DNA of 33,854 bases from Candidatus Hecatellales archaeon B24 (lineage in GTDB: Archaea; Thermoproteota; Bathyarchaeia; Hecatellales; Hecatellaceae): the NCBI GenBank assembly GCA_001593855.1, contig LUCC01000002.1, positions 1 through 33,854 on the forward strand, read 5' to 3'. Positions 13,892-25,537 of this stretch are shown in pieces. Position numbers and translations under genes: made by a program. The notes below the pieces were generated by a model. That model was not told the DNA's origin, searched no databases, and worked only from the letters and a program-made list of their open reading frames with translations. How positions within the stretch are numbered: position 1 is the stretch's first letter; each line of letters starts with the position of its first letter.

Positions 13892-14125
13892 TTGGCTAGG
13901 GCTTTCACGTTGATAACGGTTAAGCCTGGAACGGAAGACAGGGTTGTTGAAGCTATAAAAGGCATTAAAGGGGTTAAACGGGTTTACAGGATATGCGGAC
14001 CCTACGATATTATAGCGGAAATAGAAACCAGCGAGCTGTCAGCCTTAAGAGACATCGTGGAGAAAAGCATCAGGAAGATACCGGAAAACAGGTCTTCCCT
14101 AACTATGATAGTTCTTGAAAGCTGA
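13892..14125 (+). CDS. Stand-alone Lrp/AsnC ligand-binding (RAM) domain protein
   Basis: 77 aa; FTLITVKPGTEDRVVEAIKGIKGVKRVYRICGPYDIIAEIETSELSALRDIVEKSIRKIPENRSSLTMIVLES. No HTH. Confidence 0.88.
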   Translation: MARAFTLITVKPGTEDRVVEAIKGIKGVKRVYRICGPYDIIAEIETSELSALRDIVEKSIRKIPENRSSLTMIVLES

Positions 14126-14137
14126 CCCTCTAAACGT

Positions 14138-14728
14138 TCAGCCTTCCCGCCCGCCTATTTCTGAAGACTCCTCCGAGATGGTTAACAGGGACTCGGCTAA
14201 GGCTTCCAAGTCAACTTCAGCCCTAGTCCTCCAGCCTACCGTTAAAACCTCGTTTTCATCCTCATGCAGGTATCCAAGCCTAACAAACCTGTCCAGTGCA
14301 ATATTAACTCTCCACGAGGGAAGCTTGGAGGAGAGAAGCCTTTCAACCTCACCCCTCGAAGCCTTACCCTGCCTAGAAGCCAAGTAGGCGAGGGTTGCTG
14401 CTAGGGCTGCAAGGTCGTCTATACGCCATCCTGAAGCCTGTGCGTCGGTGGCTGGGAGGCTGCCCCGCAGGGTTACTAGGAAGCGGGCTCTGTCAAGCTT
14501 TGCCTCTTCGTCTCCGCCAGCCTCCCCCGAAGCCTCCGGAACTATTTTAACTTGAAGCCCAAGCCTTTCAAGCTCGCTGTCCAGCAGCTTAACGATTTTC
14601 ATGTAGTTTTTCCCAAGGCTTTTCCGCAGTTCCCATCCTTTAACTCCAGGAGTTCTGTGCCTTTGGAAGAGGAGAAGCTGAGCAGCTCTTTTCACTCTCC
14701 TAGCGTAGGAAGCTTCTCCACCGCTCAC
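14138..14728 (-). CDS. Nse3/MAGE-like (KITE-type) tandem winged-helix protein
   Basis: 196 aa; ALAATLAYLASRQGKASRGEVERLLSS...LDRFVRLGYLHEDENEVLTVGWRTRAEVDLEALAESLLTI parallels the second winged helix of MAGE/Nse3 (..GNRASEEEL.., ..YLDY..., ..YEFLWGPRAxxETSKMKVLEF). Overlaps the upstream Nse4-like gene by 4 nt (ATGA). Confidence 0.65.
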   Translation of the reverse strand: MSGGEASYARRVKRAAQLLLFQRHRTPGVKGWELRKSLGKNYMKIVKLLDSELERLGLQVKIVPEASGEAGGDEEAKLDRARFLVTLRGSLPATDAQASGWRIDDLAALAATLAYLASRQGKASRGEVERLLSSKLPSWRVNIALDRFVRLGYLHEDENEVLTVGWRTRAEVDLEALAESLLTISEESSEIGGREG

Positions 14729-15525
14729 TCTTCCCCACCGCCAACCATGAATTTATCGAGCGGTATGGCTACGGAGTATTCTCCTTTAGGCTTTCCAGCG
14801 GTTTCAGGCGTCGGCTTAAGTTTAAGCTCGCCTTTAAGCCTGTCCAAGGTTAGCTGAACATAGCCGTAGGTTGCAAGAAAGCTTACCATGTAGGCTTTAA
14901 GCACGGTTTCCCTGAAGGTTTCAGCCCTGACAAAGTCCCAGTAGGATATTTCCCCTCCAGCCTTTTCGGCTTCGGCTGAAAGCTTCTGGAAGGTTTCCTC
15001 CAGCAATCTTCTGAAGTCCCCGCTGAGGGTTAAACCTAAAGCCTTAACGGTTTCAGGTGAAACCTCGGCTTCAACCATTCTGGGGGCTTCTAAGGCTTCC
15101 GGAGGGAGGCTTCTCGGTTTAAGCCTTACCCAGTAGGAGGCAGCCTCCTTAAGCCTTTCAAGAGTTAAAACCTCGATTTTAACGGTGGGCTTCCAAGCTT
15201 TGAGGAATACTTCGGCGAGCTGTGGAATGGTCAGCTCAGCAATCCTCGTCTTAACGGTTTCAGGATCTAAAATTCTAAGCTTACTCCTAACCCTAACCCA
15301 TTCGTCTTGAAGTTCCACGACCTTTGAAAGACTGCGTAAAGCTTCCCCGTCGAGGGTTAGGTCTGAAGGTTTCACCCAGGCGGGGAGGAGACTGCGTAAA
15401 GCTTCAAGCTCCTCTTTAACGTCAACTTCAAAGGGGTTGAAACCTTTAGCTTCAACCTCCCTGCACAGGTGCACTATTCTCAGAGCCCTGTCTCTGGCTT
15501 CGCTAAGGCTTGGCTTCTCCTTCAA
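14725..15525 (-). CDS. Nse4-like kleisin
   Basis: 266 aa; C-terminal ISYWDFVRAETFRETVLKAYMVSFLATYGYVQLTLDRLKGELKLKP parallels the Nse4 C-terminal pattern (FxFVIDPxSFxxTVENxFxVSFLxxDGxxxIxLD). Overlaps the start of the Nse3-like gene and the end of the SMC-like gene. Confidence 0.65.
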   Translation of the reverse strand: MKEKPSLSEARDRALRIVHLCREVEAKGFNPFEVDVKEELEALRSLLPAWVKPSDLTLDGEALRSLSKVVELQDEWVRVRSKLRILDPETVKTRIAELTIPQLAEVFLKAWKPTVKIEVLTLERLKEAASYWVRLKPRSLPPEALEAPRMVEAEVSPETVKALGLTLSGDFRRLLEETFQKLSAEAEKAGGEISYWDFVRAETFRETVLKAYMVSFLATYGYVQLTLDRLKGELKLKPTPETAGKPKGEYSVAIPLDKFMVGGGEE

Positions 15526-17440
15526 CCAGGGCTACCTCCGATTTTCCTCCAACCTTCTGGACGACTATGATTCTTGCCTCTTCGTCGAAGACTGGGTGAT
15601 GCCAGGGTGTAATCACTATATACTGGGTTTCAGGGTTGTCTCTAACGGTTTCAACTATAAGCCGTGCCACAGCCTCCCTGTTCTTAGGGTCCATGTGTAC
15701 GTCAAACTCGTCCACAGCCCTAATAGGGGAGGCAACATGCTCCTGGAGGGCTAGGAGGAAAGCCATAATGGTGGTAGACCTTTCCCCTCCACTCTGCGTG
15801 TAAGCGTCAAGCCTTACAGGAGGAACCCCATGGAAGCCCACCGTCAACTCTAAGCCAGCCTTCTCGAAGCTTTGAGAATTAACTATTCGAACCTCTCCCG
15901 TGGCTCCTATGGTTGAGAGAAGCCGCTGGTAGCCCTGGTTAATCTTGGAAACAACCTTCTCAAGCTTTCCAATCCAAACCTCTCTTCTCGCATCTATTTC
16001 CTCCAGGAGCTTCCGCTTGTTTTCTTCAAGGGCTTCTATTTTCTCCTTAAGCTCCTCGTATAGCCTTCTAAACTTCTCGTATACCTTCTCAACCCTTCTG
16101 GAGATGTCGGAGAGGGTGGAAAGGTGGATGTTCACTGTTTTAAGCTCTTCAGCTACCTCCGGCGGGCTTCTGCCAGTGTAGATTCTCGGGCCTACCTTTG
16201 CAGCTTCAGCCTTACCGATTTCAAGGTCTTCCCTAACCTTCTCCATTTCACGGTAGAGCCTTTTAAGCTGGGAATCCAGCTCTTTAAACTGGTATTCTAG
16301 GAGGGCTTCGGAAATCCCTGCCTCGACGAGTTTATCCCTAGCCCTGTCAAGCCTGTCTTCAAGGCTTGAAAGCTGCTCCTTAAGCTTCAGGGCTTCTGAA
16401 GCTAAAGCTTTAACCTCATCCTTCAAGGCTTCAGCTTTGCCCTTAAGGTTTTCAGCCGGCTGGAGCTTTGAAAGCTCTTCCGCCAGCCTTATCCAGCCTT
16501 CCCTTTCAGCCTTCTCCACTTCAACCTTTAAGAGGTTGTGATACCTGTTTTTGAGGTCAGCCTTGACCTTTTCAAATCCTTCCAACGCTTTTTTCCTAGA
16601 GGACTTAGCTTCCTCAAGCCTTGAGAAGGTTCTGTCTATCCGCTTTTTCAGTTTTTCAGCGTCTTCAACCATTCCTTCAAGCTGAGATTCAAGCTTTGAA
16701 ACGTGTGACCATGCTAGTTCGACTTCAAGGTTTTTCCGCTGCTCCATGAGCCTGAGCTTTTTAAGGTAGCGTTCATGCTGGCTTCTCCAGTAGGAAAGGT
16801 TTTCTTCAGCCTCCTTAAGCAGCTTCCCAACGGATTTCTCCTCGGAAAGGAGGGCTTCAAGCCTTGTTTGAGCTTCAAGAACCCTTTGCCTGTAGGGATG
16901 AAGCCCTATGGCTTCCTCCACCAGCTGAAGCCTCTGCTCAGGAGAAATTAAGGCGAACTCTTCAACCATGCCCTGATGCATGATTATAAGCATGTTGTCA
17001 GGGTTTATGCCGAAGCTTGAAAGCACACGCACCAGGTCGCCTTTAGCCACATGCTTATAGTCAGCTTCAAACCAGTAGGTTCCATCCTTTCTAAGGTAGC
17101 GGGTAAGCCTGAAAGTGTCGGCGGTGGAGGTTGGAACGGGACGTCTGCCCTTAACAGGCTTGTTGCTGAAGAGCAGGGTTATCCTGGCGAGGTCGGCCCC
17201 CCGCCTGATAAGGCCGCTAAGCCTCCTAGAACGTTCTGTGTGAGCCTGACCTAAAGCCACAGATAGGGCGAGGAGAATTGAGGATTTACCAGCACCGTTA
17301 GGCCCGCATACCAGATTTAACCCGGCTTTAAGGGGAATCCTCGCATACTCGTAGGACATGAAGTTCTCTAGGATAATCTCTTCTATAATGGTTTTAGGAG
17401 CCTCCACGGCTTCAACTTTTCTTAGAGCCTCTCCACTCAA
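15503..17440 (-). CDS. Smc5/6-like SMC-family ATPase, short, without an evident hinge domain
   Basis: 645 aa. Walker A GPNGAGKSS (17279-17305); N-head LIIMHQGMVEEFALISPEQRLQLVEEAIG; signature QSGGERST (from 15796 leftward); Walker B IRAVDEFDVHMDP; ETQYIVITPW. Coiled coil between heads, no CxxC hook. TTG start with GAGGAG ribosome-binding site. Confidence 0.85.
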   Translation of the reverse strand: MSGEALRKVEAVEAPKTIIEEIILENFMSYEYARIPLKAGLNLVCGPNGAGKSSILLALSVALGQAHTERSRRLSGLIRRGADLARITLLFSNKPVKGRRPVPTSTADTFRLTRYLRKDGTYWFEADYKHVAKGDLVRVLSSFGINPDNMLIIMHQGMVEEFALISPEQRLQLVEEAIGLHPYRQRVLEAQTRLEALLSEEKSVGKLLKEAEENLSYWRSQHERYLKKLRLMEQRKNLEVELAWSHVSKLESQLEGMVEDAEKLKKRIDRTFSRLEEAKSSRKKALEGFEKVKADLKNRYHNLLKVEVEKAEREGWIRLAEELSKLQPAENLKGKAEALKDEVKALASEALKLKEQLSSLEDRLDRARDKLVEAGISEALLEYQFKELDSQLKRLYREMEKVREDLEIGKAEAAKVGPRIYTGRSPPEVAEELKTVNIHLSTLSDISRRVEKVYEKFRRLYEELKEKIEALEENKRKLLEEIDARREVWIGKLEKVVSKINQGYQRLLSTIGATGEVRIVNSQSFEKAGLELTVGFHGVPPVRLDAYTQSGGERSTTIMAFLLALQEHVASPIRAVDEFDVHMDPKNREAVARLIVETVRDNPETQYIVITPWHHPVFDEEARIIVVQKVGGKSEVALVEGEAKP

Positions 17441-20461: not shown

Positions 20462-21151
20462 TTAGGCTGGCTGAGGAGCCGTTTTAACCTCTGCTGGAAG
20501 CTTCTGTCCAGCCATGGGGGGAGTTTCCTCTTCACCCGGCTTCCAGCCTTGCTCCTCGAACAGTTTTTCCAGCTGCCTCCTCATAAGCCTTAGGTCACGG
20601 CTTAGGTTAAAGTAGTCCGCGAAAATCTTCGTGGTTCTCAGAATACTTGTCTTGCCGAGTTTCTCCCTTTCCACGAGTCCCATTTCTAGGAGGCGTGCTA
20701 TATGCTGGTAGGCTTGAGGGCCTCTGACGCCTACAACCTTCGCCTGCGGGACAGGCTGCCTGTAGGCTATGTAGGATAAAGTTTTCAGAGGACCCTCCGT
20801 CAGCAGCGGCTTCAAGGTCAGCCTTTTAATCTTCTTGACGTATCGGGACTTAAGCTGCATGACGAATCTTCCGTCTTCCAGCTCAACGATTTCGAGGGCT
20901 CCACCTTTAACCCTGTAGCTTTCAGCCAGGCCTCTCGCTATCTCCGAGACCAGACGCTTCGAGGTTATGCCTGTTATGGAGCAGAGGGTTTTAGGTTCAA
21001 GCGGGTATCCTGAAGCGTAAAGGGCAGCCTCGATAAGCCTTCTGGCCTCCCTCTCATTTACAACCTTCTTAGGCTTCTCAGCCTTTGCAGGGGCTCCAGT
21101 TTTTTCAGGCTGTCCGGCTGCCGGGTTTTCAGGTTTCAAGCCTGCTTTCAC
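20462..21151 (-). CDS. scpB: Segregation and condensation protein ScpB
   Basis: EARRLIEAALYASGYPLEPKTLCSITG..; TEGPLKTLSYIAYRQPVPQAKVVGVRGPQAYQHIARLLEMGLVEREKLGKTSILRTTKIFADYF. Confidence 0.9.
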   Translation of the reverse strand: MKAGLKPENPAAGQPEKTGAPAKAEKPKKVVNEREARRLIEAALYASGYPLEPKTLCSITGITSKRLVSEIARGLAESYRVKGGALEIVELEDGRFVMQLKSRYVKKIKRLTLKPLLTEGPLKTLSYIAYRQPVPQAKVVGVRGPQAYQHIARLLEMGLVEREKLGKTSILRTTKIFADYFNLSRDLRLMRRQLEKLFEEQGWKPGEEETPPMAGQKLPAEVKTAPQPA

Positions 21152-21821
21152 CCTCCACGGCTTTAGACTTCAAAACTATTTTGATGTCTGAGAACTCTTC
21201 TGCCTGGTAGAGTTCTACAAGCCCCTTGGAAGCCATGAAGATTAGCATGAGAAATATTTTAACAATCTCCTTCCATGGTAGGCCTCCAGCAAGCTTTGAG
21301 AAGAGAACCTCGCCTTCCGGGATGCTTGCCTTAAGCTTATCGTAGAAGGTTTCCAGCTGCTGCTCCCATTGGAGAACCATTTTATCGTATTCGGTGAAGA
21401 GGTCTCCGGGCGGAGGCTCCAGCCGTTTAACCTTTACCAGGGCTCCAGCCTTCTCAGCCTTCAAGACCTCATCTAAAACGGCAAGTATGTCTTCAAGCCC
21501 TGTTACGGTCAGCTCAAAGCGGAAGGGAAGCTGGAGGGGTGGAGGAACATAGTCGAAGATGCGTTCAAAGCCTTTCTTCTCCTCTTCGATTTCAGCCTCG
21601 AAAATCCTTTCGGACTGAAGCCTTAGAACTATGCTGGAGGACAGGAGGGCTGTGCCTGAAGCGTTGAAGTCTACGTAGCCCATCTGCTTCATTTCCTTGA
21701 GGAAGCTTGAAAGCAGCGTTGCTATGTTTAAGTCCCATGGTCTCACCTTGCTGAGCCTCGCCAGGTCGAAGAGAACCTGCCAAGGAGGCTTAAGCCAGAA
21801 AGGCTTTTTTTCGCTGCTCAT
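21129..21821 (-). CDS. scpA: Segregation and condensation protein ScpA (kleisin)
   Basis: PPWQVLFDLARLSKVRPWDLNIATLLSSFLKEMKQMGYVDFNASGTALLSSSIVLRLQSERIF; C-terminal VLFSKLAGGLPWKEIVKIFLMLIFMASKGLVELYQAEEFSDIKI. Confidence 0.9.
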   Translation of the reverse strand: MSSEKKPFWLKPPWQVLFDLARLSKVRPWDLNIATLLSSFLKEMKQMGYVDFNASGTALLSSSIVLRLQSERIFEAEIEEEKKGFERIFDYVPPPLQLPFRFELTVTGLEDILAVLDEVLKAEKAGALVKVKRLEPPPGDLFTEYDKMVLQWEQQLETFYDKLKASIPEGEVLFSKLAGGLPWKEIVKIFLMLIFMASKGLVELYQAEEFSDIKIVLKSKAVEGESRLET

Positions 21822-21840
21822 CTGCTTCCTTTAACCTCCT

Positions 21841-24800
21841 CTAACTTACCTTGCTTACCTCCGCAACCTTGGCTGGAAGGGTGTGCACGTAGGACACCCC
21901 GTTCCTGGCGTAAACTCCGAAGAGCCTGTCCGCTCGGGAGGCCATGGGCTCCTTGAAGCTGATAACTATCATCTGAGCCCTCTTAGACTCTCTTGCCAGC
22001 AGCTCAGCCAGCCTTCCAGTGTTCACAGGATCTAAATGAGCGTCCACTTCGTCGAAAATATAGAAGGGGGAAGTTCTGGTGAGGCTTTGCAGGGCGAAAA
22101 TGTAGCATACGGATACCACGGATTTTTCTCCTCCGCTTAGGGCGGTAACAGGCATTGGAGGTTTCCCTGGGAACTCGACTATGAGGTCTAGGCCTCCGCT
22201 GAAAGGGTCTTCAGGGTTTTGAAGCTGAACCCAGCCTCTTCCACCCGTTATAGCGTTAAAGGTTTCAGCAAACCTTTGGTTAAGCTTTTCTAGGGCTGCG
22301 TAGAAGGCTTCCTTCTTCTCTTTTTCCACAGCCTCTATGAAGCGTAGGATCTCGCTTTTCTCCTCTTCAAGCTTGTTTATTTTCGCTGAAAGCCCCTTAT
22401 AGTCTCTTTTCTGAGGCTCGTAAAGGGCTGGAGCGTTCATGTTAAGCTGACTGTAAAGCCTTTCCCTTTCCTCTTCAAGCCTTCCCATCAGCATGTCTGA
22501 AAGCTTAACCTCAACCGTGGAAAGCTTTAAAGGCCTCTCGAAGCCGAGTTCTTTAAGCTCCTTAAGACACTCCTCATATTCTATTTGAAGGCGGAGCCTA
22601 CGCTCCTTTAACTCGTTAAGCTTCCCCTCCATCTTCCTTATTTCTTCTATAAGCCTCCCGTAGTCTTCATCTATCTTTTTCAGGGTGTCACCGAAACGTT
22701 TGTACTCCTCTCTTCTAGAGGCCATAAGCTCTGTAAGCTTGTCCCTTTCAGCTATAAGCTCCTTGATGGAGGAGTCTATGCCTGATATTTCAGCTAGGGT
22801 GTCCTCTTCAAGTTTAAGCTGGCGTTTAAGCTCTCTTTCAAGGCCTGTTAGCTCCTTTCTAACCGTGACAAGGTTCGGGGTGTAAACGGTTTCGAAGGTG
22901 TCCTGCAGAGACCTAAGCCTGTTGTCAACCTCGTTAAGCCTCTTGGAGAACTCTACGACTTCGGCTTCCAGCTGGGCTTTTTCGCTTTCAAGCCCTGTTA
23001 CGTATTCAGGTCTAACCTTCGCCCTAAGCCTTTCAGCCTCGCTTCTAAGCTTTGAAAGCTCGGCTTCTAGGGCTGCCTTTCCACCTTCAACCTCGTTTAT
23101 GAGGGACCTTGACTTTTCAAGCCTCCTGTTCAGAGACTCAATCTTCCTGTTAGCCTCCGATATGAGCCTCCTATTCCTCGAAAGATTATTCTTCATGGTT
23201 TCCTCTTCAGCGTCAAAGAATTTGAGGCTGTCCTCATGTCGAACCCTTTCGGATTCAAGTCTGACCAGCTCCTTTCTAAGCCTCTCCAAGTCGGCTCTAC
23301 GCCTTTCAAGAAGCTTCTCGAAGGTTACAACGGTTTCACCTACGGCGTCTATGGTTTTATCGCTGGGAACCACCTCTGAAAGGTCTATGGGCTCCCTATA
23401 GAAGCCCACCGTAAGCCTGGGTCCAGGCTCGAAAACCTCGCCTTCAACCGTTACAGCCCTGAAACCGGCTTTAGAAGCCTTCAAAGCAGCTTCAGCCGTG
23501 GAAGCAAGGAAAGTGTCGCCTAAAATGAAGTTTAAGGCTGGCTTAAACTTTGAGGAGGCATCCACGAGGGAGGCCAGCGAGCCTACTAGTCCTTCAATTT
23601 TAGGTTTGGACACCGGCTTTATGTTTCTGGCTTCTGAAAGCGGGATAATCTTGATTCTCCCAATCTTGGTCCGCTTAAGACTTTCAGCACACTTCTTAAC
23701 GATGTCTAGGTTTTCAACCACTAGCGCCTGAAGCCATCCTTCCGCTGCAGCCTCAACCGCCTGCCTGTACCTGGGAGGAATCCTGATACGCTTTCTAAGC
23801 CTTCCGTGGACGCCTCTGAGAGCTCCCATAGAGGCTAGGCTTTCAATCAGGCTTAAAGCCTTCTCCTCGGAGAGAACTCTTTCGGCTAGGTCTTTCTTGG
23901 ACTTGAAGGCTGTGACGTTCAGCTTAGCCTTCTTAACCACGCCTTCAGCCTTTCTAATCTCGTCTTCAGCCCGTGCCATCTGCTCTTTAACCCGTTCTAT
24001 CGCGTTAACTGTTTCTTCAAGGCTTTTCTCTTCTTTGCGTCTGAACTCTCTAAGCTTCTCAAGCCTTTGGGCTAGGTTGCTGAAGATTTCCTCCAGCGAC
24101 CTTCTTTTGTCTTCTATGGAGGCTATCTGGCTGATTATGCTGTTCTCCCTCTCTTTTTCACCCCTGATTTTCAGGTAGAGCTTTCCCCTTTCCGACTCAA
24201 GCCCTTTAATTTTCTTCTCCAGCTCCCTTAGGGCTGAAGCGTTAGTATCGAGGTTAAGCCTGATATCGGAAATCTTCTCCTTGATACGCTCTATTTTCTT
24301 CTGTCTCTCGGAAAGGTAGGCCTCCAACTCCTCTTTTTCTCTAACCAGCCTTCTAAGCTCCTTCTTTGCTTCCGAAGCCTGGGTTTTAAGTCTTTCCAGC
24401 TGCGCCCGCTTTTCATCCCTTCTAGCTTCAAGGTTTCTGGTGGCAGACCGGATGGAGGACAGCGTTGACTTGCGGACGGCTAGCACGGCGTTCAGGTTTC
24501 CAAGCTGAGCTTGAAGGTGAACAAGCCTGTCTCCACCCTTATCTACGACTTCCCTTGCATACTCACCGTATTCATCTTGAACCCTTCGTCTTTCAGCTTC
24601 AAGCTGGCTTCTTCTCCCTTCCAGCTCGCCTATCTGGGAGGTTAGGTTTTCTACGGCTGACTGAACTTCTTCAAGGTTCTCGAAAAGCGATTTGGCTTTA
24701 ACGGAGAGCCTTACAGCCTTGAACCTGTTGATGAGGTCTGAAAGGTAGTTGTAGCTGAGAACTATGTTTCTCCCGGTTTCCAGCTCTGTAACCCTCAACT

Positions 24801-25395
24801 TTACTTCCTCGTATTTTCCGCGGGCAACCTTAATGTTAACTTCAGCCTCTCTAAGCTCTACTTCAGCTTCTTTACGCTTCCGGTCGTATTCCGCTATTCC
24901 TATGATTTGCTCTACAGCCTTCCTTCTCTCCTCCGGGGGGCTTTCAGCAATCCGGATGGTGGTTCCCTGGAAGACTATGTTCATTCCTCCGGTAAGCGAA
25001 GCCATGGAAAGCATGTCCACTAGGACGTTCCACGAATACTTCATGCCGTTAACTTTGAGGGTGCTGGAGCCGTCAGGAGATACGCTTCTGGTTATGACCA
25101 CATCGTCAGAGTCTATGGGGATCTTCCTGTCAACATTGTCTATGTGGATGGTTACCGTAGCCCTTCTCGCCTTCTGGTAGTCGCTGTTTCCGCTGAAAAG
25201 CAGGTCTGGAAAGCTTTTCACCCTCAGCGACCTTGTGCTTCTTTCGCCTAGAACAAACTGTACGGCGTCTACGATGTTGCTTTTACCTGAACCGTTAGGG
25301 CCGACGATAACGTTCAGCCCCTTATCGAAGGTTAACACTGTCTTACGTGCGAAGGTTTTGAAGCCTGAAAGCTCCAGCCTTTTGATGAGAACCAT
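21841..25395 (-). CDS. smc: Chromosome segregation protein SMC (canonical)
   Basis: MVLIKRLELSGFKTFARKTVLTFDKGLNVIVGPNGSGKSNIVDAVQFVLGE; hinge ASMGALRGVHGRLRKRIRIPPRYRQAVEAAAEGWLQALVVE; LSGGEKSVVSVCYIFALQ; YIFDEVDAHLDPVNTGRLAELL. ORF track starts at 25467, but ATG 25395 gives the canonical N-terminus. Confidence 0.96.
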   Translation of the reverse strand: MVLIKRLELSGFKTFARKTVLTFDKGLNVIVGPNGSGKSNIVDAVQFVLGERSTRSLRVKSFPDLLFSGNSDYQKARRATVTIHIDNVDRKIPIDSDDVVITRSVSPDGSSTLKVNGMKYSWNVLVDMLSMASLTGGMNIVFQGTTIRIAESPPEERRKAVEQIIGIAEYDRKRKEAEVELREAEVNIKVARGKYEEVKLRVTELETGRNIVLSYNYLSDLINRFKAVRLSVKAKSLFENLEEVQSAVENLTSQIGELEGRRSQLEAERRRVQDEYGEYAREVVDKGGDRLVHLQAQLGNLNAVLAVRKSTLSSIRSATRNLEARRDEKRAQLERLKTQASEAKKELRRLVREKEELEAYLSERQKKIERIKEKISDIRLNLDTNASALRELEKKIKGLESERGKLYLKIRGEKERENSIISQIASIEDKRRSLEEIFSNLAQRLEKLREFRRKEEKSLEETVNAIERVKEQMARAEDEIRKAEGVVKKAKLNVTAFKSKKDLAERVLSEEKALSLIESLASMGALRGVHGRLRKRIRIPPRYRQAVEAAAEGWLQALVVENLDIVKKCAESLKRTKIGRIKIIPLSEARNIKPVSKPKIEGLVGSLASLVDASSKFKPALNFILGDTFLASTAEAALKASKAGFRAVTVEGEVFEPGPRLTVGFYREPIDLSEVVPSDKTIDAVGETVVTFEKLLERRRADLERLRKELVRLESERVRHEDSLKFFDAEEETMKNNLSRNRRLISEANRKIESLNRRLEKSRSLINEVEGGKAALEAELSKLRSEAERLRAKVRPEYVTGLESEKAQLEAEVVEFSKRLNEVDNRLRSLQDTFETVYTPNLVTVRKELTGLERELKRQLKLEEDTLAEISGIDSSIKELIAERDKLTELMASRREEYKRFGDTLKKIDEDYGRLIEEIRKMEGKLNELKERRLRLQIEYEECLKELKELGFERPLKLSTVEVKLSDMLMGRLEEERERLYSQLNMNAPALYEPQKRDYKGLSAKINKLEEEKSEILRFIEAVEKEKKEAFYAALEKLNQRFAETFNAITGGRGWVQLQNPEDPFSGGLDLIVEFPGKPPMPVTALSGGEKSVVSVCYIFALQSLTRTSPFYIFDEVDAHLDPVNTGRLAELLARESKRAQMIVISFKEPMASRADRLFGVYARNGVSYVHTLPAKVAEVSKVS

Positions 25396-25537
25396 GACAA
25401 AAGATAATAGCTTAATTGTTAAATTAAAGGTTAATATCCTAATTCTTGGTAAGTATACATCAATCAAACATTATATTTATGCATGAAATTCGAAAGATAG
25501 AAGGCTTATCCTGAAGCTAACTTGGAGGAAAAAGCCC
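25396..25537. promoter_or_regulatory. AT-rich divergent intergenic region between smc (-) and pepQ-like (+)
   Basis: Markedly AT-rich 142 bp between divergent genes; TATA-like TTATATTTAT at 25471-25480 for the + strand gene. Confidence 0.5.

Follow-up and report, generated by a model that had tools for sequence, protein, structure and literature searches.

An archaeal operon that probably encodes a compact Smc5/6-type complex from single SMC, kleisin, and KITE genes

Results

The 33,854-nucleotide stretch of the Candidatus Hecatellales archaeon B24 genome analysed here (the window) carries on its reverse strand an SMC-family gene and two smaller ORFs downstream of it, and the three overlap head to tail, by 23 nt at the SMC-kleisin junction and by 4 nt at the kleisin-KITE junction. 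The source genome is a partial archaeal MAG of 819 kb, and one SMC5/6-type gene was counted in this 72% complete assembly. The operon's neighbours in the window are housekeeping genes (truA, moaABC, and pmbA/tldD). The features discussed below are the following.

15503 to 17440, reverse strand: SMC5/6-type ATPase, 645 aa, hinge-less, its two head halves (N- and C-terminal) connected by about 300 aa of coiled coil
17282 to 17305, reverse strand: Walker A motif GPNGAGKS (aa 46-53), found in 86 of 86 homologs
15779 to 15796, reverse strand: ABC signature QSGGER (aa 549-554), Smc5-like; SGGER is found in 85 of 86 homologs, and the Q is of the Smc5 type
15689 to 15718, reverse strand: Walker B region AVDEFDVHMD (aa 575-584), Smc6-like by motif and diagnostic-column comparison
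14725 to 15525, reverse strand: putative Nse4-like kleisin, 266 aa, from profile, Nse4_C, and fold matches
15196 to 15507, reverse strand: N-terminal helical domain of the kleisin (aa 7-110; long helix 53-83) in the AlphaFold2 model, expected to bind the SMC neck
14812 to 15018, reverse strand: C-terminal winged helix of the kleisin (aa 170-238), from AlphaFold2 and fold search, expected to bind the SMC head cap
14138 to 14728, reverse strand: putative KITE subunit (Nse1/Nse3/MAGE type), 196 aa, tandem winged helices in the AlphaFold2 model
14468 to 14719, reverse strand: first KITE winged helix, which contains the conserved basic patch KRAxQLLxxQRHRxPGVKGWELRKxLGKDY; DNA contact is predicted from Nse3 (PMC9191643)
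14237 to 14422, reverse strand: second winged helix of the KITE, from the AlphaFold2 model
20462 to 25467, reverse strand: complete canonical SMC (with hinge)-ScpA-ScpB operon; moaA, moaC, moaB, and truA lie between it and the Smc5/6-type operon

The SMC gene is intact, and its product matches Pfam SMC_N (E=3.5e-32). The ORF opens with a TTG codon that is not firmly fixed as the start, and conservation begins near residue 17. An earlier note on this DNA had recognised an SMC-family ATPase here from a set of short strings, and all of them (LIIMHQGMVEEFALISPEQRLQLVEEAIG, IGATGEVRIVNSQSFEKAGLELTVGF, QSGGERSTTIMAFLLALQE, VDEFDVHMD, and QYIVITP) are present, with a resemblance far beyond chance. 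An SMC match was found in the genomes of 60 of 61 relatives, and the full-length homologs in the alignment share 34 to 80% identity. D577 and E578 are invariant across the 44 aligned homologs; among 86 homologs, the exact string DEFDVxMD occurs in 22 and Q(Y/F)..(I/V)TP in 74.

The head had also been read as a mixture of Smc5 and Smc6 signatures, and the comparison bears this out. At 20 diagnostic head positions, which are identical in yeast and human within Smc5 and within Smc6 but differ between the two proteins, the archaeal consensus has the Smc6 residue at 9, the Smc5 residue at 6, and neither at 5. A phmmer search of the PDB with the ORF gave yeast Smc5 as the top match (E=2.4e-31), and human and yeast Smc6 were among the further matches. 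A profile built from 44 homologs scored yeast Smc5 at 213.5 bits, yeast Smc6 at 212.6, human SMC6 at 211.5, and human SMC5 at 181; archaeal canonical Smc reached 170 bits, Smc2 162, Smc1 137, Smc3 130, Smc4 126, B. subtilis 118 to 120, and Rad50 43.

Head-domain trees (336 columns, LG+I+G4; support given as SH-aLRT/UFBoot) agree with these scores on an affinity to Smc5/Smc6. With two species for each of Smc5 and Smc6 and one for each of Smc1-4, they are a placement test rather than a full phylogeny. The eukaryotic and Rad50 sequences are PDB chains; queries for Smc1-4, human SMC5, and Rad50 were checked against the chains, PDB search alignments supplied yeast Smc5, yeast Smc6, and human SMC6, and the end of the yeast Smc2 head rests on the query and its score. 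The rooted tree used P. furiosus Rad50 from the PDB as its outgroup; a Rad50 candidate on contig C22 of the source genome was rejected as outgroup because it is another ATPase. The rooted tree unites the archaeal group with Smc5 and Smc6 in one clade (99.2/99), and in the unrooted tree canonical SMC and Smc1-4 fall into one clade (100/100) with the archaeal SMC5/6-type group outside it. The SMC ORF belongs to the SMC5/6 clade, outside canonical SMC and Rad50 and outside any eukaryotic clade. A larger published tree likewise joins archaeal "SMC5/6-related" SMC with eukaryotic SMC5/6 (100%/0.99; PMC9389158, citing Yoshinaga & Inagaki 2021), and the archaeal SMC5/6-type SMC itself is an already known group.

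The earlier note had offered two origins for the mixed head: descent from before the Smc5/Smc6 duplication, or convergence in a fast-evolving SMC. The former is compatible with the trees, but a position as sister of both was not singled out, since AU tests left all three arrangements standing (sister to Smc5+Smc6, p=0.52; to Smc6, p=0.59; to Smc5, p=0.19). The latter is disfavoured because the stem of the archaeal clade is short, at 0.35 compared with about 1.0 to 1.3 for Smc5, Smc6, and the canonical clade.

Neither downstream ORF received a family assignment above curated thresholds. The first is predicted to be an Nse4-like kleisin on modest profile scores and a structural model. A 54-member profile matched yeast Nse4 (1.9e-4) and the human NSE4 paralog EID3 (5e-4), then ScpA (0.056) and little else, and Pfam Nse4_C matched 43 of the 54 members (best, 5.7e-6). 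Foldseek with the AlphaFold2 model returned Nse4 in first and second place, from two Smc5/6 structures (7tve_G, 9.2e-4, and 7qcd_F), and next the SMC-head-bound C-terminal winged helices of ScpA and Scc1. The winged helix superposes on the ScpA cWH bound to the Smc head in 4i99 with a TM score of 0.76 to 0.77 by target length. The whole model superposes poorly, and its pTM of 0.40 makes the relative placement of its domains untrustworthy.

The second downstream ORF is probably a tandem-winged-helix KITE nearest to the Nse1/Nse3/MAGE type. Its AlphaFold2 model is a tandem winged-helix protein (pLDDT, 86; pTM, 0.74), and the five best PDB matches in the fold search were chains of the Nse1-Nse3-Nse4 complex 7dg2, of MAGE-G1/NSE1 5hvq, and of JetABC, followed by MukE and ScpB. 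The Pfam family that matched most members was MAGE (6 of 39; best, 3.6e-4), and the window KITE itself matched no Pfam family. Searching its profile against the PDB by sequence alone gave chance matches, so the assignment rests on the fold and on the weak MAGE matches. No RING was found in the 196-aa protein or in the adjacent genes, and no Nse2 or Nse5/6 among the operon's immediate neighbours.

The three genes travel together. Among 80 related loci in public genomes, the kleisin lies downstream of the SMC gene in 77 and both partners are present in 76, with junctions that mostly overlap or are a few nucleotides apart. Two of the three kleisin-lacking loci end at the SMC gene or no more than about 1.2 kb past it; the third (L102) belongs to genome G341 (titled Methanosarcinales; loci L102 and L162), where the SMC gene is unlinked and a kleisin-KITE pair lies elsewhere in the genome. 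Within the phylum of G341, 15 of 148 genomes gave strong kleisin matches, and two more (G362 and G388) gave weak ones (E 4.5e-6) that may be divergent kleisins. Across 300 genomes of the window's phylum, in a survey made up of non-Asgard genomes, SMC was found in 128, the kleisin in 126, KITE in 125, all three in 122, and any of them in 131, so that genomes without one trio gene are nearly always without all three; SMC and kleisin co-occur with a Fisher p of 8e-77, kinship being ignored. Seven of the nine incomplete trios are in genomes at most 78% complete; in the others, the SMC gene is cut by a contig end (G022) or the kleisin lies at a contig edge (G019).

Some genomes arrange the trio differently. 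In one Hecatellales relative (L031:6285-8745), a stretch of about 2.7 kb, with a RecA/KaiC-like ATPase and two other ORFs on the opposite strand, parts SMC from kleisin-KITE. In G065, G073, G094, G108, G134, G237, and G260, SMC lies on the opposite strand from kleisin-KITE, kilobases off, or on another contig. The operon thus splits in some lineages while the trio is retained.

The SMC5/6-type protein of the window gave no SMC_hinge match at E up to 1, whereas the window's canonical SMC scores 1.3e-25, and SMC_hinge is absent from the 25 families common to most of the 44 homologs. A CxxC zinc hook occurs in none of the 86 operon-type homologs (581 to 730 aa). Length variation centres on the middle of the protein, where many phylum-wide homologs (open frames of about 570 to 620 aa) are without some 60 to 70 residues, which fits a coiled-coil tip that has no conserved domain. 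The arms measure about 140 residues (~20 nm).

We also observed, in several related genomes, a paralog with SMC5/6-type heads, 1,039 to 1,067 aa long, that carries CDKC or CNKC (CDKCGS/CNKCGS) at the apex of longer arms. Two copies are complete and two are cut by contig ends, at these loci.

L139:1657-4860: zinc-hook paralog
L140:1921-5040: zinc-hook paralog
L141:3111-4834: zinc-hook paralog
L146:1-2427: zinc-hook paralog

The paralog groups with the operon SMC of its own lineage (L037) at 99.9/100, and it stands alone, with neither kleisin nor KITE nearby in the loci seen. Genomes G025 and G057 have it in addition to the operonic hinge-less form. The same heads therefore occur in one form that has no tip domain and in another that bears a Rad50-like hook.

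Discussion

The window very probably encodes a compact, single-paralog Smc5/6-type complex of archaea, made of one SMC, one Nse4-like kleisin, and one Nse1/Nse3-like KITE from an overlapping operon, that would act as an ATP-driven DNA clamp. The gene content, the family assignments, their conservation and co-occurrence, and the absence of a hinge are observations; from them we infer the stoichiometry, the clamping of DNA, and the cellular role as follows. One SMC gene and one KITE gene suggest that both proteins form homodimers. ATP-bridged heads would join two SMC subunits, and the kleisin would make the ring asymmetric, its N-terminal helical domain sitting on the neck of one SMC while the C-terminal winged helix caps the head of the other. 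A KITE dimer on the middle of the kleisin could then close over DNA lying on the engaged heads, like yeast Nse3, and hydrolysis of ATP would open the heads so that DNA is moved or released. The geometry is that of the yeast Smc5/6 clamp, in which DNA sits on ATP-engaged heads with the KITE above and the kleisin linking them, and in which the first winged helix of Nse3 supplies lysines that clamp the DNA (PMC9191643). Without a hinge, the archaeal SMC tips would have to be held together through the coiled-coil ends, if they are joined at all. The standard ring is out of reach for an SMC that lacks a hinge, and together with arms of about 140 residues the missing hinge points to local clamping or compaction of DNA rather than large rings. 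The most likely task of the complex would be maintenance of chromosomes or DNA junctions in parallel with canonical SMC-ScpAB, and the canonical SMC-ScpA-ScpB of the window presumably does the bulk organisation.

Other readings of the trio have to be weighed against these data. One is an SMC-type immune system of the Wadjet/JetABCD or Lamassu kind, which would sense or loop foreign DNA and trigger an effector; the PADLOC model of LmuB, which is likewise short, matches residues 18 to 611 of the SMC (E=2.2e-25), JetC matches weakly (4.5e-15), and 8dk1_F, the KITE of JetABC, is among the structures similar to the KITE model (8.7e-4). Yet the chromosomal model SMC_prok_A scores better (9e-65), no PADLOC family matches the kleisin or the KITE, and the trio is not accompanied by any conserved nuclease or effector gene; its neighbours vary or, as in the window with truA, moaABC, and pmbA/tldD, are housekeeping genes. 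Defence islands are patchy, whereas the trio stays in step across whole lineages (complete in 122 of 131 genomes), and we consider an immune role improbable.

We find it very improbable that the SMC acts in repair as a simple dimer, as an ATPase of the Rad50 or RecN kind, next to two unrelated DNA-binding proteins. Such a reading would account for a short coiled coil without a hinge, as in RecN, and for winged-helix neighbours, but the bit score is 43 for Rad50 and 213 for Smc5/6, CxxC is found in 0 of 86 homologs, the three genes strictly co-occur, and the kleisin profile matches Nse4 and then ScpA. Least probable of all to us is that the operon arose by duplication of the organism's own SMC-ScpAB and then diverged, its ScpA and ScpB having degenerated. 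The canonical locus does lie 3 kb upstream (20462-25467), and kleisin and KITE proteins have folds in common; against this, the head tree splits the two SMCs at 100/100, the kleisin is nearer to Nse4 (1.9e-4) than to ScpA (0.056), the KITE members match MAGE with the ScpB family not listed, and in other lineages the two loci are not, as a rule, linked.

Taken as an Smc5/6-type complex, the trio can be set beside the known systems. It shares SMC heads, an Nse4-type kleisin, and an Nse1/Nse3-type KITE with the eukaryotic Smc5/6-Nse1-Nse3-Nse4 core, but it has one SMC and one KITE gene rather than pairs, an SMC without a hinge and with much shorter arms, and no Nse2, Nse5, Nse6, or RING found at the locus. 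The SMC-kleisin-KITE plan is also that of archaeal and bacterial SMC-ScpA-ScpB, whose SMC, in contrast, has a hinge, measures about 1,200 aa, and belongs to a different clade; ScpA and ScpB are not the top matches of the operon partners. Like the ASRPs (coalescin ClsN and Sph), the window SMC is a short SMC-related archaeal ATPase, but its NCBIfam ASRP score of 52.7 bits is far under the cut-off of 300, and it is without the zinc hook that most ASRPs have (PMC9389158). Wadjet (JetABCD/MksBEF) and Lamassu are similar in being KITE-type SMC complexes or in having a short SMC-like ATPase; the operon differs in being a trio with no JetD or LmuA-type effector and with partners that match no PADLOC model. 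With the archaeal "SMC5/6-related" SMC it shares a clade, both by the published definition and in our head tree, and the accessible text on the group (PMC9389158), which deals with the SMC proteins, does not mention kleisin and KITE operon partners or a missing hinge for the group.

A literature search returned no account of an archaeal Nse4/Nse3 operon or of a hinge-less architecture; a 2025 study of SMC evolution from archaeal ancestors lay outside its reach. Relative to that search, the Nse4-like and Nse1/3-like operon partners and the hinge-less architecture would be new, with priority uncertain.

Of the eukaryotic SMC complexes, Smc5/6 is arguably the one that is least well understood, and where it came from is an open question. 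The operon suggests what Smc5/6 may have looked like before the eukaryotic duplication of its parts. Tentatively, and with slightly more doubt than belief for the proposal as a whole, we suggest that the complex is a single-paralog precursor of the Smc5/6-Nse1/3-Nse4 core of eukaryotes, passed down vertically within archaea, whose clamp is a hinge-less SMC homodimer, and that one nearby lineage put a zinc hook on the same heads, which would show that the tip of such an SMC is replaceable. If this is true, the Nse4 and Nse1/3 families would date to archaea, and it would become clear which of the hinge, the paired SMCs, and Nse2/5/6 were added later or separately. The archaeal trio, with a single SMC and KITE in place of the paralogs, would then be a minimal system for reconstitution, and a hinge-less SMC-kleisin-KITE complex would test whether SMC action on DNA needs ring closure by a hinge.

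Some observations concern the surroundings of the operon. The order of canonical operon, moa genes, truA, and Smc5/6-type operon is kept in the close relatives L029 and L032 as far as their contigs reach. At about 13897 to 14126 on the forward strand, convergent with the operon and just downstream of it, lies a short ORF that by eye resembles an AsnC/Lrp ligand-binding (RAM) domain.
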